DNA of 64,000 bases from Fibrobacterota bacterium. Lineage in GTDB: Bacteria > Fibrobacterota > Fibrobacteria > UBA11236. The position numbers and the translations under genes are program-made. The stretch lies in the NCBI GenBank assembly GCA_028287465.1, contig JAQBPO010000084.1, positions 1-64,000 on the forward strand. The letters are read 5' to 3'. Below, piece after piece: positions 40,846 to 52,345 of this stretch (the first letter of the stretch is position 1; each line of letters opens with the position of its first letter). The notes beneath the pieces were generated by a model, which had not been told where the DNA came from, did not search any database, and saw only the letters and a program-made list of their open reading frames with translations.

Positions 40846-41340
40846 ATGGTGTTTAGAGCCGATATCCCCCGTCCCCTTACCGTCGCTTCCGCCCTGTTCG
40901 CGGTCCTCCTTCCGGTCTCCCCCACTTTCGCAAACACCGTCATTGCGGGAGGCTTCGTCCCTGAGAATCGGAGTCTGACCGTTCGAACGGTCCAGGTATC
41001 GGATTCCTCCAGGACGGACGGGGCGGTGGAGGTCGCTGTCATCGAGTTGGATAACAACCTCCCGGATTATGAGGTGGTCCTGGATTTTTCCGACCGGTAC
41101 GGGAGCGGCGAATTCGTTTCCGAAGTCAGGTTGGAAGGGCTGGAGGGGATGCTGGGGCGGGGCCTGTCCGAGCCCGCGGGAGCGCCTTTGCTACCCGGCG
41201 CGAGTCCCGGCCAATTTGTCTGGTGCCCCGGGCGTCAGGAATCAGCCACCCTGGGTTACAAGGTCCGCGTCCTGGCGACATTCAAGTCGGGTAATCCGGA
41301 AAAGCCGTCCTTGAGGGTCAGCATGCCCATCTCCCTTTGA
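40846..41340 (+). CDS. Pilin-like secreted protein facing the chaperone-usher locus
   Basis: 164 residues with a signal peptide (TVASALFAVLLPVSPTFA). VAVIELDNNLPDYEVVLDF resembles the core strand of the two pilin-like proteins nearby (ATFYITNNTAGGFNLSF, ALFVVNSNDSTGFHVTF), and the C-terminal KVRVLATFKSGN ... SLRVSMPISL matches their final strand position. It is convergent with the usher gene (13 bp between stops), so it is not in that operon but may be a minor or tip subunit. The similarity is weak, and the assignment is an inference. No Cys pair is seen. Confidence 0.6.
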   Translation: MVFRADIPRPLTVASALFAVLLPVSPTFANTVIAGGFVPENRSLTVRTVQVSDSSRTDGAVEVAVIELDNNLPDYEVVLDFSDRYGSGEFVSEVRLEGLEGMLGRGLSEPAGAPLLPGASPGQFVWCPGRQESATLGYKVRVLATFKSGNPEKPSLRVSMPISL

Positions 41341-41352
41341 GGAGAGTACCTC

Positions 41353-44300
41353 TCACTTGGGGGAGAGGATAAGGCTGCCCACGGAAGTGATCCCGACGGC
41401 TTTTTTCGGCAGCTTGAGGATCAGGGAATACTCTTTCCCCTCCACATCCATTTCGATCCGATAGCTCCCGGGTTGCAACCGGGTCAGCTGGAATTTCCCG
41501 GCCGCGTTCGTGAATCCTACGATCGGTTCCTGGGAAGCCACATCCAACGGCGTCGCGGAAAAGGATTGGTAGACGACCGGAACGCCGGGCGCGAGCAGCA
41601 AGGTGCCCAAGGCTATGATGGTCGCGCTCGATCCCATGTAGAATGCATAGCCGCTCTTATAGCCGGGATAAATGGTGTAATCCGTCCTCTCATCGCTGGA
41701 ACCGAAGGGCGGGTCGAGCACCTCAAGATGGAATTTCTTCAGGTAGTAGGGATTGATGGTCGGGACCACGCCGGGCCTCCAATTGGAACTCTTGGCATCA
41801 TACCCATCGCCGTTCGGGTTGACGAGGATATTGCAGGCTTCTTCGTTCGAGACGCCTTTTACGAGCACGAAACTGTTGGTGACCGGCCTTGAGAAAGCGA
41901 GATTTCCGTCTACGTAGACCAAGGCGGTTTGCAGGGTCAGATCCGAGTAATTGGTGACGACCGGCGATAGCTTGGGTTCGAACCGGCGCCCATAGACCTC
42001 CGCATAACCCTGATTGCCCCTCCAGCCCGCCGTTCCGGTGTATTCATTGGCCGAGGGTCCGAAAGTGGTCCCGGCTTTCAGGATCGGATTGTAAGGGAAC
42101 TGCGAAGACCCATGGTAGTCCCATGCCATGTCGGTGGAATAATCCCAATTCGGGGGCGTTCCCTTTTCCGTCCCGTCCGGGACATGGTTGTCGACCCGTT
42201 CCGATGCGGCGAAGGCATGGTCGCCCTGGTTGAAGTAATATGAAACGGTGGCGGAAACGGAGGTCGTGACGGCCTCTTGCCGATCGAGCGTGTTCCTGAG
42301 CGAGAAGGACGTGGACCACCCCTTGCCCCAGCCGCGGCTGAGGCTCAGGGAAGCGTTGTAGAAGTCGAAGCTGTCGGGCCTGAAGGTGTATCCGGATGTA
42401 AGGTTCAAATCGATGAACTTGGAATGGCTTTGCAAGGTCCCGGCCATGTTAAGGCCCCCCAGGTAGCTCGGATCCTGTCCGGGCCGGAAGAAGGCCTTGC
42501 TCAGGTATTCCATGCGCAACCGCCAAGTCTTGGGCGAAACGTTGCTCGAAACCTTGGGGATATAGGTGTACTCCAGGTTGGCCGCCCAGCCAAGGCTTGA
42601 ATCGATTCGAAAACTGGCTGCGCAGTCCGCCTTGATTTTCCCGAGCTTCATGGCCTGCAAGGCGTTGAACCCCACCATGCCCGCCGTATCCAGCGCTTGG
42701 GAATAGGCTTCCATGGTGAGGAAATCCGAAAATCCCCGGCGGAAATCCAGGAACAGGACCGGATGCCCCAGATCGTATTCGTAGTTGAGGATCTTGTATC
42801 CGTCGGGTTCGGGTCGCAGCCCTCTTACCTTCCAAACGTCGCGCCTGGGGAACCCTGCATTGTAGGAAAACGCCGACCTGCCCGCTGCCAGCAGGCTTGG
42901 CTCATGGATGAAGTTGAAATTGATGGTCTGCATCTGGCCGGAGTTGTCCGTGATCTGGATTTCCACTTCGCTCTCGCCCGCGGTGAAGGGAAAGCCCTGC
43001 AAATCATGGGTGCCGGGTTCAAGCTGATAGGTTCCCCGCAGCATGCCGTTTATGAACACCTTGACTTCCGATTGGTTAATCAGGAAGAACTCGTAATCCT
43101 TTACGGGATAGGCGACAAGATGGGGTTGCAGGGAAAAATCCCTCGACAGGCCGATGCCGCCCATGTTCAGGAAACTCTGGAAGCCGCTGGTCGGGAAGGA
43201 GAGATCGCCGACCGAAAGGCGTATCGCCTTGTGCGGCCAATCGTGCACCAAGCGGATGTCCTGGCGGTTGGCTTCGAAGCCGTTGAGGTCCGACTTCTCC
43301 CAGATGCCGCCTTTTCCCTCCAGGACCCAGGAAAATACGTTCACCGCGCCATCCAGGTTGGTGATTACAGGTTGCCTTGGCTGCTTATTCAGGGCATCCG
43401 TGGTCGCCCTCCCCGAGCCCAGGCTGTCCAAGCGGTTCCCATTGTATTGGTAGTAGGGTATCCGCTCCATGACCCGCGTATTGAGGTAGGCGCTCAATCG
43501 GCTCGGTTCCATGACGGGCACGGAATAAGGGTCGACGGGGAGGCCGGACATGGGGTGGATCTTGGTGCCGACCAATTGGGCGGGAACGCCGGTGGACAAT
43601 TCGAATACCGAGGTGTTCAACGAAGTGGGGAAACCGCATTCGATCAGGTCCTCGACGGTGAACCGCGTCTGGGATTGCGCGCGGCGGGCCAGCTTTTCCC
43701 AAAGCTCGCGCTTTACCAGGCCTTGCAGGGCATTGAGCACGGGATCGGCCGGGAAGGTATAGCGCTTCTGTTCCTTGGAATAATTGATCCACAAGGTGCC
43801 ATAGGATTTGCCGTCCACCAACAGGGTCACTTCGATGCTGGGCGGCAAGGGAAGCGGCTTGTGCTTGAAGACATCTTCGAAGAGTTCGTCCCTCGTCCTG
43901 TCGAGCATGATGGTCTGCAATTCGATCTTGGGAGCCGCGATTTTCACCGGGGCCTGGACTTTCGAGGGCGCGGCGGGACTTACGACGCTGTCCACGGCGG
44001 CGCCCGCTTCCCATCCGATATCGACCAGCAGGGTGGAATCCGACTTTGGCGGCGGCTGGGATCCGGATTGGGGTTTCCCTTGTCCGGCGTTCACGCCGGG
44101 ATCGGACTTGCCCTTCAAGGCGGGGACCGGAGGCGTCGCCCAAGGGCCGGAATCCTGTTTGGCCATGCTGCCGGGTATCGATTCGACTTCTTCGGAGGGT
44201 GGAACCGGAATCTGAGCCTGAGCGGGAACGGGCTTGGGCTTGGGTTGATTCTTCATCAAGTCGAGAAAGACCTGCCGCTGAGGACCGTTGATGCTGATCG

Positions 44301-44616
44301 AAATGCCGAACCGGGACAGGACCTTATTGGTGAAAGTACCTTGGGAACTCAACTGGCCTTCCAGGCGGCGCAAGGTCTCCTGGTCGACCATGGGAGCCAA
44401 GGCTTGAAGCACCGGCGAAGCCGGGATTTCAATCAGGGTGCCCCCGGCGGAAAGGTTGATCCAGGTGTCCGCCACCTTCTTTCCCGATACGATCAAGGTC
44501 ATTTCGAAATTGGAAACGGTCGGTTCCCCTCCTCCTTCGCCAGCGCCCAACGCCCGGCCGGGACCCCCCAGGATGAGCGCGAGCGATAGGAAAAGCAGGC
44601 AGGGGTTAATGGACAT
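41353..44616 (-). CDS. Fimbrial outer-membrane usher with duplicated N-terminal domain
   Basis: 1087 residues, longer than ushers of 800-870. After a signal peptide come two copies of one domain: ~38-120 (EMTLIVSGKKVADTWINLS) and ~261-340 (EVTLLVDGKSYGTLWINYS), joined by a Pro-rich linker. The rest has the usher landmarks: TKIHPMSGLPVDPY, LSAYLNTRVMERIP, the beta-barrel repeats and a plug-like EFFLINQSEVKVFINGMLRGTYQLEPGTHDLQGFPFTAGESEVEI. It resembles the CS1/alpha-type ushers by memory. Ushers secrete and assemble pilin subunits at the outer membrane. The C-terminus holds a carboxypeptidase-regulatory-like block (FTNAAGKFQLTRLQPGSYRIEM). It is the last gene of the pilin operon. Confidence 0.87.
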   Translation of the reverse strand: MSINPCLLFLSLALILGGPGRALGAGEGGGEPTVSNFEMTLIVSGKKVADTWINLSAGGTLIEIPASPVLQALAPMVDQETLRRLEGQLSSQGTFTNKVLSRFGISISINGPQRQVFLDLMKNQPKPKPVPAQAQIPVPPSEEVESIPGSMAKQDSGPWATPPVPALKGKSDPGVNAGQGKPQSGSQPPPKSDSTLLVDIGWEAGAAVDSVVSPAAPSKVQAPVKIAAPKIELQTIMLDRTRDELFEDVFKHKPLPLPPSIEVTLLVDGKSYGTLWINYSKEQKRYTFPADPVLNALQGLVKRELWEKLARRAQSQTRFTVEDLIECGFPTSLNTSVFELSTGVPAQLVGTKIHPMSGLPVDPYSVPVMEPSRLSAYLNTRVMERIPYYQYNGNRLDSLGSGRATTDALNKQPRQPVITNLDGAVNVFSWVLEGKGGIWEKSDLNGFEANRQDIRLVHDWPHKAIRLSVGDLSFPTSGFQSFLNMGGIGLSRDFSLQPHLVAYPVKDYEFFLINQSEVKVFINGMLRGTYQLEPGTHDLQGFPFTAGESEVEIQITDNSGQMQTINFNFIHEPSLLAAGRSAFSYNAGFPRRDVWKVRGLRPEPDGYKILNYEYDLGHPVLFLDFRRGFSDFLTMEAYSQALDTAGMVGFNALQAMKLGKIKADCAASFRIDSSLGWAANLEYTYIPKVSSNVSPKTWRLRMEYLSKAFFRPGQDPSYLGGLNMAGTLQSHSKFIDLNLTSGYTFRPDSFDFYNASLSLSRGWGKGWSTSFSLRNTLDRQEAVTTSVSATVSYYFNQGDHAFAASERVDNHVPDGTEKGTPPNWDYSTDMAWDYHGSSQFPYNPILKAGTTFGPSANEYTGTAGWRGNQGYAEVYGRRFEPKLSPVVTNYSDLTLQTALVYVDGNLAFSRPVTNSFVLVKGVSNEEACNILVNPNGDGYDAKSSNWRPGVVPTINPYYLKKFHLEVLDPPFGSSDERTDYTIYPGYKSGYAFYMGSSATIIALGTLLLAPGVPVVYQSFSATPLDVASQEPIVGFTNAAGKFQLTRLQPGSYRIEMDVEGKEYSLILKLPKKAVGITSVGSLILSPK

Positions 44617-44708
44617 CGTGCATGTGAGGGAGGTCCAGCATACTCAGCGTTTCCGTCTTTCAACCCCTTGAAAAGGGGCGTCTATCCCTGGCGCGCGGCA
44701 CCGAGGAT

Positions 44709-45542
44709 TTATTTGGGGGCATCCGGGAAAACCGGCATTACGGCGACCGGCCCGACCGGCAAGTCCGTGGGCCATGGCAATACCACCATGCGCCGGAAGC
44801 CCGGGAATACGCTTTGGGACGTGGCTATCGAACTCTTGACCTCCTTTACCAGGATGCGTTCGTTGAATTTGAATTTCCCGTTCTTGTCCAACGGCGCTAC
44901 CGATAACTGCATGTTCTTCAGGGATTGCAAGCCCGTCCCTTTATTGTTCAGCAGGACGACGAGGGAGGTTCCCGTGCTGTCCTTGCGCGAATAGGCCGTA
45001 TCGGCGATGACCGCCGGCTTGACTCCTTTGGGCCTGATGACGATGATGCCTTCATACCGCGTTTCGATGCTGACCAGGCCCATGGCCGATTTCGGTTTTT
45101 CCTTCGGCTCCTTCAGTTGCAGGGGCAATTGGGTCGCGATGAACCCGAGGGAAACCTCCTTGCTTGGAACGGTGGTGCCTACCCATTGGATCTGGATCTT
45201 TTTGGTATCCCCGGGATATAGGATGAATTGCGAAGGATAGACGACGAAATCATCCGCGCCAATGGACGAAGGATAGGACACGCTCCCATCCAGGTTGATC
45301 ACCCGCGCGGATATGTTGATCTCCACCGGCACCGGCGCGCTCTGGGGTCCTTGTTCCAGGGGGCCTTGGACCTTGTCGCTCGTCGGCGGGCCCTGGGTCT
45401 GGAAGGTGAAGGTCACTATCTGGCTGATGATCTTGTTCTGCGGTTCGAAAATCAGGATCCAGGGATTCAAGGTGAAGCTGGAACCCCATGCCGTTGCGGC
45501 CATGAGCCCGGGAAGGATCCCTACCAAAGATTTAAAACGCAT
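44709..45542 (-). CDS. Periplasmic pilus-assembly chaperone (PapD-like)
   Basis: 277 residues with a signal peptide, somewhat longer than the ~230 of classic chaperones. The first immunoglobulin-like domain ends with the pattern FVVYPSQFILYPGDTKKIQIQWVGT, the F-x-x-[YL]-P-G-[DE]-x-[KQ]-x-[IV] chaperone signature. GLVSIETRYEGIIVIRPKGVKP then starts the second domain. These proteins donate a strand to newly exported pilin subunits and carry them to the usher, which is encoded 92 bp downstream. It is the third gene of the pilin operon. Confidence 0.85.
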   Translation of the reverse strand: MRFKSLVGILPGLMAATAWGSSFTLNPWILIFEPQNKIISQIVTFTFQTQGPPTSDKVQGPLEQGPQSAPVPVEINISARVINLDGSVSYPSSIGADDFVVYPSQFILYPGDTKKIQIQWVGTTVPSKEVSLGFIATQLPLQLKEPKEKPKSAMGLVSIETRYEGIIVIRPKGVKPAVIADTAYSRKDSTGTSLVVLLNNKGTGLQSLKNMQLSVAPLDKNGKFKFNERILVKEVKSSIATSQSVFPGFRRMVVLPWPTDLPVGPVAVMPVFPDAPK

Positions 45543-45585
45543 AAAACCTCTAAAAAATGGGCGATGTTGCTAAGGATACCGTAAA

Positions 45586-46089
45586 TCAGGGGCCGGAAAC
45601 AATCGTAGCGGTGATGGTCTCCTGGTAGAATCCGGCGAGACGGGCGGATTGATCCGCCCAATCGGCATAGATCGCGATCAGATAGTTATCCGTGGCGCTC
45701 GTGGGCGGAACGCTGGTGGGATTCCACGTTGCCACGCCGGTGCCGGGGTTCACGGAGAGGGCCATATCGGCGGGAGCGGCAAGCCCGGCCCCCAGTGTTC
45801 CGCTGACGCTGCTCAGGACGATATTGGACATGGCGAATTGCCGCGCTCCGACCTTAAAGAAACCCTTGTTCGTGAAGGTGAAGGTCACATGGAAACCGGT
45901 CGAATCATTGCTGTTCACCACGAAGAGGGCTATTTGCTGGCGTATGCCCGGAGAACCGAAGTTGAGGCCGAGGTTGGCCGTCGCGGACTGGATGGTATTG
46001 ACTAGAGGAGGATCGGTCCAAGCCGCCCGGGAGGGGGCTATGCAAAGGGTTGCGACCATGACCAGGCCCGTTTTGATGGATTTGATCAT
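45586..46089 (-). CDS. Pilin-like subunit (second subunit, after terminator)
   Basis: 167 residues from ATG 46089, with AAGGTG upstream, after a signal peptide (TGLVMVATLCIAPSRA). It has the beta-strand pattern of chaperone-usher subunits, with ALFVVNSNDSTGFHVTFTFTNKG and the final strand SARLAGFYQETITATIVSG, similar to SCPU-type (Csu) pilins. The major-type subunit at 46256 has the matching LLAGFYEEVVTVYLV. Lower expression is expected, since a strong terminator lies upstream. It is the second gene of the pilin operon. Exact role (minor, tip or adhesin) is unknown. Confidence 0.75.
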   Translation of the reverse strand: MIKSIKTGLVMVATLCIAPSRAAWTDPPLVNTIQSATANLGLNFGSPGIRQQIALFVVNSNDSTGFHVTFTFTNKGFFKVGARQFAMSNIVLSSVSGTLGAGLAAPADMALSVNPGTGVATWNPTSVPPTSATDNYLIAIYADWADQSARLAGFYQETITATIVSGP

Positions 46090-46201
46090 TAAGGCACCTT
46101 CAGATTGGAAATCCTTTCCAGGTTCAGCTATCCGCGCTAAGATGGTACCATTAAACGGGATTCGAAAAAAAGCCGTATTCCAGGCTCGGATCCGCGAGGT
46201 C

Positions 46202-46232
46202 AAAAAAAAGAAGGGCCTGGAGGCCCTTCTTT
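46202..46232 (-). terminator. Rho-independent terminator between the two pilin genes
   Basis: Reading the minus strand, an exact inverted repeat (AGAAGGGCCT / AGGCCCTTCT, plus two flanking A-T pairs) with a 2-base loop is followed by an uninterrupted T-run. It lies 24 bp after the stop of the major pilin-like gene and before the second subunit. This is the classical layout that keeps the major subunit abundant while allowing readthrough into the rest of the operon. Confidence 0.88.
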
Positions 46233-46255
46233 CATTCAAAAATGTGGCGATGCGA

Positions 46256-46819
46256 TTAAAGCGTCGCGACCAGGTACACCGTTACCACTTCTTCGTAGAA
46301 ACCGGCCAAGAGGGTGGCGTCAGCGGCCCAGGTGGCCGAAACCTCCACTTTCCAATCCGTGGTGGCTACCGTTTGCGCTCCCGAGGCCCAAACCGGGCTG
46401 ACCACGTTGGCGGCCATCGCGCCGAAGGTCTGGGTGGTCAACGGAGTCGTCGCGCCGCTATAGGTACCGGAGGGCACGGTCGGCAGCGCGAACTGGGCGC
46501 CGGTGAATACGTTACCATTGGGAGTGGCGGCCAAACCCTGTCCAGGCTTGGCAAAACCCGCATGCTTGAGGGCGAAGCTCAGGTTGAAACCGCCTGCGGT
46601 ATTGTTGGTGATGTAGAAGGTCGCGATGTTGGTCATGGCCGCGTGCACGGCGTTGACGTCGATGCTCGTGTTACCGATACCGACGGCATAGTTGTTCACA
46701 GGTACCGTTCCGCCGCATAGCACGCCTGCGCTTACCGGGACTGAACCAATTGCAGCCGCGAGAACCGCGGCTGCGACTCCTCTACTAAAAACCTTCTTTA
46801 CGTTCTTCATGCTGTTCAT
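46256..46819 (-). CDS. Major pilin-like subunit
   Basis: 187 residues from ATG 46819, with ACAAGGAGG in front. A signal peptide (KKVFSRGVAAAVLAAAIGSVPVSAG) is followed by a beta-rich mature part: IATFYITNNTAGGFNLSFALKHAG, PTVPSGTYSGATTPL and the C-terminal ADATLLAGFYEEVVTVYLV, which could be the strand used in donor-strand exchange. The fold is SCPU/Csu-like. Being first in the operon, with its own promoter and followed by a terminator, it is probably the main structural subunit. The longer upstream frame lacks coding features. Confidence 0.8.
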   Translation of the reverse strand: MNSMKNVKKVFSRGVAAAVLAAAIGSVPVSAGVLCGGTVPVNNYAVGIGNTSIDVNAVHAAMTNIATFYITNNTAGGFNLSFALKHAGFAKPGQGLAATPNGNVFTGAQFALPTVPSGTYSGATTPLTTQTFGAMAANVVSPVWASGAQTVATTDWKVEVSATWAADATLLAGFYEEVVTVYLVATL

Positions 46820-50468: not shown

Positions 50469-50513
50469 GCCGGTCGCGGGCCGCGCCGGCTATTCCCGCG
50501 GGCCGCGACCGGC
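50469..50513. terminator. Inverted repeat between convergent genes, possible two-way terminator
   Basis: GCCGGTCGCGG (50469-50479) and CCGCGACCGGC (50503-50513) are exact inverted copies around a 23-base loop. They sit between the stops of the DUF4197 gene and the GH99-like gene, the usual place for a bidirectional terminator. There is no T-run, so efficiency is uncertain. Confidence 0.45.
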
Positions 50514-52177
50514 TATTCCGAAAGGACAAGGGTCCTGGCCAGGGAGACTCCCGGACCCGAAAACAGGACCCGGTAAACGCCCTTGGGGACCGCGCCCCCG
50601 CCGGCATCGCACGCGTCCCACTCCAACTCCGGCACCTGGCCTGCCACCGGTATCCGGCGCACTTCCCTGCCCCTGGCGTCCAGGACCCTGATCGCATCAA
50701 GTCCCTGCAGGCCTCGGAAGCGGAAACGGCCTCCCGCGGAAACGATCCGGACATCCCTCGCGAAGGCGGCCTGGCGTCCCGCCACCGGCGTCCCCCCGGC
50801 AAGCCCCACCGTTACGCCTTCCACGGTAGTGACCCTGACCTTGACCGGCAGGGTCGCGTCCGCGGGAACGGTCCACTTGTAGCTCCCGGTATTGTCCACC
50901 TGGGTGGCGATGCGCGCCCAAGCCGTCCCTTTCCAGTATTCCAGGTTCACGTAATAGATGATGCCGGTATGGCTCCAGGACAGGGTGCGCTGGGACCCCA
51001 CGGCCCAATCGTTCGGCTGGGGCGGGTCTATCAAGGTAAGGGACGGGGCCACCGCGGCGTTACGGCCGGCCTTGGCCAGGACCATCTTCAGCAGGGTGGC
51101 GCCGTACCCCTCGTACATATAGCCCTTGGAATAGGAGAAGTCCGCCGTGCCGTCCTTGTTGGTCGGGGGCGCGACTATGGTCGGCTCGATCTCCGTGTCC
51201 TCCCACCATTCGTTCCAGCTGCAGATGGCCGTACCCAGGACGGTATCCGCCTCGTCCACGGCCATGGACAGCATCTGGTTGAAGGTGGAGCCTTCCGCGG
51301 AATCGGCCGCGACCTTGCGCGGGATGGGATAGTTGTTCGCCGAAAGGCGTACGGCCCGATCATTGTATCCCGGGATGGCATTGGTCATCAGGCGCGTTCC
51401 GTAGGGGGCTATAGCCTTCTTGTGCGCCTGGAAGTTCTTGCGGGCGGCCTCGACGAACCCCGTGGCCTTGGGATAGCCGTCGAAGGTCTTGATCCCGTGG
51501 ACGTTGTAGATGGTGATGGCGTCCCAGTTCTTGTGGCGTTCGGGATCGGGCGGGCCGAAATGGAAATCGTCCCCCATCAGGAAGACGTTGAAGTCCTTGC
51601 GCACCCGGGCCAAGGCCGTGGCATAGTCGCCGTTCATCATGCGCGAGAGGTAGACCACCACCACGGGCTTGCCGCCGATCCTCCAGTAGTTGGGATGGGA
51701 GAAGAAATTGTCGTTCATGTATTTGATATGGTCGTAGAACAGCTGGACTTCCGAAGGCCCGAAGGTCCAGCGGCCGTCATAGAAGGCGCTGGTCTCGTAG
51801 AACAGGCAGAAGGTGACCTTGGCGCCCACCAGGTTGGGCGCCACGTTCTTGAGGATGGCGTTGCTCTGGTAGGAATCCGGTCCCCACCACGAGGTGATCC
51901 AATTGTCGATCCCGAAGTTGGTCGACCATTCCGCGTGCTGCCGGACCGAGACCTTGTTGGACGCGTTGTCGTAGGTGCCCATCAGCGGGGGGATGTCCAT
52001 GCGGTTCTTGCCCCGGAGGAAATTGGACTGGTTCCAATTCGCGCCGGCGTACCAGGGATAGTAATAGACGCTTACGTGCGGTTCCGCGGCGGGAACCGAT
52101 CCCAGACATAAGAGGATGAGCCCCCAAACGGTCCCAAGCCTGGCCCTGCCGATCCCATTCCTCATACCCGCCCGCAT
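50513..52177 (-). CDS. Secreted GH99-like endo-alpha-mannosidase family protein
   Basis: About 554 residues with a signal peptide (VWGLILLCLGSVPAAE). The catalytic domain (to ~390) shows VYYYPWYAGANW, PLMGTYDNASNKVSVRQHAEWSTNFGIDNWITSWWG and the acid region ICSWNEWWEDTEIEPT, the hallmarks of GH99. Such enzymes cleave internal alpha-mannose or alpha-glucose linkages of mannans. A Kre9/KNH-like beta domain follows (PNDWAVGSQRTLSWSHTG ... WTVPADATLPVKVRV), then a FlgD/sorting-like tail (IRVLDARGREVRRIP ... LARTLVLSE). Start 52177 versus 52165 is not certain. Confidence 0.85.
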   Translation of the reverse strand: MRAGMRNGIGRARLGTVWGLILLCLGSVPAAEPHVSVYYYPWYAGANWNQSNFLRGKNRMDIPPLMGTYDNASNKVSVRQHAEWSTNFGIDNWITSWWGPDSYQSNAILKNVAPNLVGAKVTFCLFYETSAFYDGRWTFGPSEVQLFYDHIKYMNDNFFSHPNYWRIGGKPVVVVYLSRMMNGDYATALARVRKDFNVFLMGDDFHFGPPDPERHKNWDAITIYNVHGIKTFDGYPKATGFVEAARKNFQAHKKAIAPYGTRLMTNAIPGYNDRAVRLSANNYPIPRKVAADSAEGSTFNQMLSMAVDEADTVLGTAICSWNEWWEDTEIEPTIVAPPTNKDGTADFSYSKGYMYEGYGATLLKMVLAKAGRNAAVAPSLTLIDPPQPNDWAVGSQRTLSWSHTGIIYYVNLEYWKGTAWARIATQVDNTGSYKWTVPADATLPVKVRVTTVEGVTVGLAGGTPVAGRQAAFARDVRIVSAGGRFRFRGLQGLDAIRVLDARGREVRRIPVAGQVPELEWDACDAGGGAVPKGVYRVLFSGPGVSLARTLVLSE

Positions 52178-52345
52178 CCCCTCTTTCCGCCCGTTCCGGC
52201 GGGAAAACCTGTTTCCATAATACGGGAGTCCGCCGGGCGAAGCGCGGGAAAATATCCCGGCGCGCGCCCGGTTACGCATAAAACGGGGAAATGGCCGGTT
52301 TAGCGTTTACTTTTGAAAACACCGAATCGTTTCCGGAGCAGCTCC

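Follow-up and report, generated by a model that had tools for sequence, protein, structure and literature searches.

An usher with two unequal N-terminal domains in a non-classical-like chaperone-usher locus of Fibrobacterota

The chaperone-usher locus described here lies in a 64,000-nucleotide stretch of the genome of a Fibrobacterota bacterium (contig JAQBPO010000084.1; hereafter, the window) and encodes an usher with two homologous N-terminal domain (NTD) folds. The copies are unequal. Copy 2, together with the tail that precedes it, is the most conserved part of the protein, and copy 1 evolves faster, yet is under purifying selection. Judged from sequence, the locus encodes a novel version of a non-classical chaperone-usher pathway, and our search of the open-access literature found no description of an usher with two NTDs.

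The usher is encoded by an intact open reading frame (41353-44616, minus strand) of 1087 residues. A probable signal peptide (residues ~1-24; 44545-44616), read from the sequence, is followed by NTD copy 1 (residues ~33-115; 44272-44520), a linker with a conserved GPWxxPPVPxL (residues 116-238; 43903-44271), a tail (residues 239-255, RTRDELFEDVFKHK; 43852-43902) and the adjoining NTD copy 2 (residues 256-345; 43582-43851), which comparison with genus-mates shows to be the protein's most conserved domain. Residues 346-1087 (41356-43581) comprise a barrel with plug and the C-terminal domains. The Pfam Usher family (PF00577) matches with an E-value of 7e-6 and 25.6 bits, just short of the 27.1 cut-off, and hhalign matches a 25-usher Fibrobacterota profile to FimD with an E-value of 2.6e-12 over 601 columns, which cover the barrel, the plug and the C-terminal domains. 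The full-length model has a mean pLDDT of 75, and usher structures (FimD, PapC) fill the first 18 places among its PDB fold matches. Profile alignment, model and fold search all mark the protein as an outer-membrane usher that has the barrel, the plug and the C-terminal domains. At the C-terminus (residues ~1030-1087), resemblance to a carboxypeptidase-regulatory-like fold was observed in 9 of 25 Fibrobacterota ushers. The linker, which a preliminary description of this DNA had called Pro-rich, indeed contains 17% Pro, and pLDDT below 50 across residues 106-239 of the full-length model predicts disorder. Within the disordered region we observed a D(S/T)xG(P/S)WxxP motif (usher residues ~155-170; window ~44107-44154) that recurs at residue 117 of the usher L016. 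GPWxxP occurs in the linkers of 4/4 double-NTD ushers versus 0/18 other N-terminal extensions tested; because the pattern was picked after looking, we merely note it.

Several comparisons substantiate the two similar blocks that the preliminary description had reported. A gap-free alignment pairs residues ~32-110 with ~256-334 and has 29 of 79 positions identical (37%; BLASTP E 2e-13), and the score of this pair, 117, compares with a best of 55 among 2000 shuffled pairs. An HMM built from tail-bearing NTDs only, from which copy 1 and all sequences of the window genus were excluded, finds copy 1 in the window usher (E 4e-7, all values for 10,000 sequences), in two genus-mates (7e-6 and 9e-6) and in an usher from another genus, G055 (1.6e-10). 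In all four double ushers these matches start at about profile position 14-18, beyond the tail. The block edges first proposed, 38-120 and 261-340, are better placed near 33-115 and 256-345, and a second shared motif that had been noted, GxxxSxNxxxVFxL, is spaced differently in the two copies. An assembly artefact or gene fusion was ruled out, since two genus-mates of other species have the identical layout.

The NTD is too diverged for profile or sequence comparison to place it, and a fold search was therefore required. The suggested alignment with the FimD NTD did not succeed at this level: no NTD match was found with the NTD alignment profile against FimD and EcpC or in a PDB sequence search, and the likeness is seen by fold search only. 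Structure prediction, also suggested at the outset, returned usher NTD folds for both blocks. Copy 1 was modelled alone from an alignment of all NTDs, copy-2 sequences among them, which gave a pLDDT of 84 and the strand and helix order EEEHHEHEE. Its nine best PDB matches among 350,542 chains are all usher NTDs or ushers, including Caf1A (4b0e, 4b0m) and FimD (1ze3, 1zdv, 1zdx, 3rfz), with TM-scores of ~0.4-0.6 for isolated NTDs. The matches have probabilities of 0.72-0.99. Their E-values (0.02-0.11) are not strong alone, and the weight lies in nine consecutive matches of the same kind together with the leave-out profile.

The two copies differ most clearly in what precedes them. An SREELFRLAFG-like motif lies ahead of every barrel-adjoining NTD in Fibrobacterota, with counterparts outside the phylum in Leptolyngbya (SEDELFEQIFG) and Indioceanicola (AKDDLFSKVFG). 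In the window usher this tail contains a predicted helix (residues 242-250, full-length model), and we equated it with the tail of FimD and PapC because of its position, this helix and its hydrophobic residues. Copy 2 combines an NTD fold, as modelled, with a putative chaperone-binding tail motif and helix. In classical systems, the N-terminal tail of FimD and PapC folds on the chaperone and accounts for ~60% of the NTD-chaperone contact surface (PMC9452303), and mutating it abolishes pili or impairs them (PMC8410936). The motif is absent before copy 1 in 4/4 double ushers, and in the window usher the first strand of copy 1 begins a mere ten or so residues after the probable signal peptide.

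Divergence among genus-mates follows the same division. Identity is 81-89% in copy 2, 76-88% in the tail, 59-66% in the body, 41-58% in copy 1 and 28-38% in the linker. Nonsynonymous divergence (dN) is 0.10-0.15 for copy 2, 0.05-0.13 for the tail, 0.24-0.32 for the body and 0.34-0.55 for copy 1. For copy 1, dS between genus-mates is 1.2-1.7, near saturation, so that dN/dS ratios are rough; dN nevertheless lies well below dS, which indicates purifying selection, several-fold weaker than on copy 2. The fold-defining residues of copy 1 are conserved.

The usher closes a co-directional series of minus-strand genes: pilin-like subunit 1 (46256-46819), pilin-like subunit 2 (45586-46089), a periplasmic chaperone of 277 residues (44709-45542; ortholog comparison and chaperone profile) and the usher itself. 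The start of subunit 1 given in the preliminary description, 46819 (MNSMK...), is preferred over the longest reading frame (46897) because the ortholog start in L009 matches; orthologs likewise set the start of subunit 2, whose longest reading frame begins at 46239. Locus comparison revealed a third pilin-like gene (40846-41340, plus strand), convergent with the usher, encoding a 164-residue protein that is weakly similar to the other subunits and lacks the LAGFYxE C-terminal motif of subunits 1 and 2. The three small, secreted-looking proteins are mutually related and have no Pfam or PDB match. The third gene is present at 3/3 double-NTD loci of the genus versus 0/4 of the nearest single-NTD loci with enough flank (L054, L058, L062 and L063), which retain the order pilin 1, pilin 2, chaperone, usher; as the association comes from one genus, it counts as one event. 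No third pilin-like gene was detected beside the double usher of G055. Elsewhere in the window, 50513-52279 (minus strand) encodes a protein of glycosyl hydrolase family 99 that carries a FlgD Ig-like domain at its C-terminus.

The operon's chaperone belongs to the PapD superfamily and has the invariant proline. Pfam PapD_N scores 0.0021 at best on these chaperones, and a search with the chaperone profile recovers, at an E-value of 9e-39, the protein annotated as chaperone next to the usher of Leptolyngbya. Archaic and alternative chaperones carry Arg89 as a signature (PMC4654587). The corresponding column holds an arginine in CsuC, EcpB and the Leptolyngbya chaperone, versus 0/23 Fibrobacterota chaperones (the window protein and 22 relatives: L009-L013, L045-L063). 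The Fibrobacterota proteins retain the invariant proline and share a different invariant arginine, R80 in the window chaperone, within (E/A)RxxDLDG. A search of the genome for PapC_N (PF13954) gave no match to a classical FimD/PapC-type NTD, and no CsuE-type tip adhesin was found after the usher, where the next gene is the convergent pilin-like gene. The sequence evidence present thus points to a non-classical-like system, and since the chaperones lack the signature arginine, filing it as archaic appears unwarranted.

Ushers of this kind occur in 23 of 168 Fibrobacterota genomes. A search for like ushers in other genomes recovered the double layout in the genus-mates G002 and G003 and in G055, of another genus in the same class; with the window usher, these make 4 of 26 near-complete Fibrobacterota ushers. 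No usher match was found in three further genus-mates within the 168-genome survey. That one NTD is normal, as had been stated, agrees with every solved usher retrieved, with the other 22 of the 26 Fibrobacterota ushers and with cyanobacterial and alphaproteobacterial relatives. Relatives outside the phylum, on plasmids of Leptolyngbya, Indioceanicola, Novosphingobium, Vibrio and others, have 812-860 residues and at most one NTD, and align from query residue ~239 onward only.

In an usher-body tree rooted with these relatives, a small outgroup set, the Fibrobacterota ushers are monophyletic (support 99), with the double ushers in two separate places. For the usher body, the AU test rejects a single clade of all double ushers (p 6e-6); the tree of the NTD, a short domain, is weak by itself and gives p 0.22 for monophyly of copy 1. 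Because single-NTD ushers surround both double lineages, the simplest history suggested by these sequences would be two separate gains of the second NTD. The suspicion that the system is a distinct branch holds in part: the Fibrobacterota ushers are a clade of their own, but their clear kinship with cyanobacterial and alphaproteobacterial ushers makes them an offshoot of a non-classical group already known. Two N-terminal extensions of single ushers deserve mention. In the G161 usher (L031; L060:6021-9617, minus strand), a stretch of the extension resembles the end of an NTD, LKSLGIDFSYDPTLVQVDIILPP, and this copy-1-like region, convincing by eye, is not significant in the profile search (E 6 for 10,000 sequences). 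The extension of the G093 usher (L032; L061:69-3911, minus strand) has two apparent DUF5666-like repeats and no extra NTD; one alignment member matches DUF5666 with an E-value of 2.9e-5.

We see an even chance that docking takes place at copy 2 and its tail, with copy 1 as a tethered accessory helper; as copy 1 lacks the tail that grips chaperones in known ushers, it probably plays a helper's part and does not amount to a second full docking site. An ancestral usher would have gained a second NTD between the signal peptide and the original NTD. Copy 2 and its tail would catch chaperone-subunit complexes and pass them to the C-terminal domains, like FimD and PapC, and copy 1, a tail-less globular part, would swing on its tether of ~130 residues. 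Copy 1 may bind weakly through this globular part, most likely to incoming chaperone-subunit complexes, and could thereby raise their local concentration or favour a particular type of subunit, for instance the third pilin specific to the genus. The preliminary description had instead suggested that the usher holds two complexes at once, with copy 1 as a second working docking site. The kept NTD fold, purifying selection on copy 1 and the extra pilin-like gene of the genus agree with such a site. We nonetheless regard it as improbable, because the tail, critical for recruitment in PapC and FimD (PMC8410936; PMC11459180), is missing before copy 1 in all four double ushers and present at copy 2 and every other barrel-adjoining Fibrobacterota NTD, and because copy 1 is less well conserved than copy 2.

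Copy 1 might also have a regulatory or structural role and contact either its own usher, at plug, copy 2 or C-terminal domain, or another usher molecule; it might, for instance, hold the gate shut or bring ushers into pairs. In the course of the PapC cycle the NTD touches both plug and CTD2 (PMC8410936), and an NTD core without a tail could therefore retain such contacts; an interface of this kind is not visible in our computations, however, and the long disordered tether does not suggest a fixed place, which leaves this role unlikely in our estimation. A functionless leftover of duplication, the least probable of these readings, would account for the faster divergence of copy 1 relative to the remaining structured protein, but copy 1 is intact in all three usher-bearing members of the genus, its fold-defining residues are kept with dN well below dS, and a similar addition arose in another lineage.

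Returning to the accessory helper, a more specific version is tentative, and we would sooner doubt than accept it: Fibrobacterota ushers may twice independently have acquired a long-tethered NTD core that lacks the tail and serves as a subunit-specific selector or antenna, and one usher could then order three subunit types via two unlike receiving domains. If true, this would be an arrangement that we have found described for no usher. How NTDs rank different chaperone-subunit complexes and hand them over is still under study, and a natural chain that separates an NTD core (copy 1) from a core plus tail (copy 2) offers a ready test of the role of each part.

Among known systems, FimD, PapC and Caf1A share with the window usher the barrel, plug, C-terminal domains and NTD fold, but have a single NTD with its tail at the mature N-terminus, and kinship of the NTDs is undetectable by sequence. 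The archaic (sigma) Csu system of Acinetobacter is a distant relative (usher HMM E 2.5e-10, chaperone E 0.004) with the same order of subunits, chaperone and usher. In contrast to the window system, CsuD (832 residues) neither matches the Fibrobacterota tail/NTD profile nor carries a second NTD, the chaperone CsuC has Arg89, which the window chaperone lacks, and csuE follows csuD, whereas no CsuE-type tip adhesin gene was found in the window operon. The ushers of Leptolyngbya sp. BL0902 (WP_198808580.1) and Indioceanicola profundi share 27-29% identity with the window usher across 75-78% of its length (E 6e-78 and 5e-58) and likewise have the tail motif and NTD, and the Leptolyngbya plasmid has the gene order of the window (hypothetical, hypothetical, chaperone, usher). 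These ushers of 847-860 residues have one NTD versus two, and the Leptolyngbya chaperone has the signature arginine that Fibrobacterota chaperones lack. The single-NTD Fibrobacterota ushers (L026, L030, L033, L034, L032 group) differ in their other N-terminal extensions, one of them DUF5666-like, and in having no third pilin gene nearby, but they form the sister clade of the window usher, and those loci with enough flank have the same operon of pilin 1, pilin 2, chaperone and usher.
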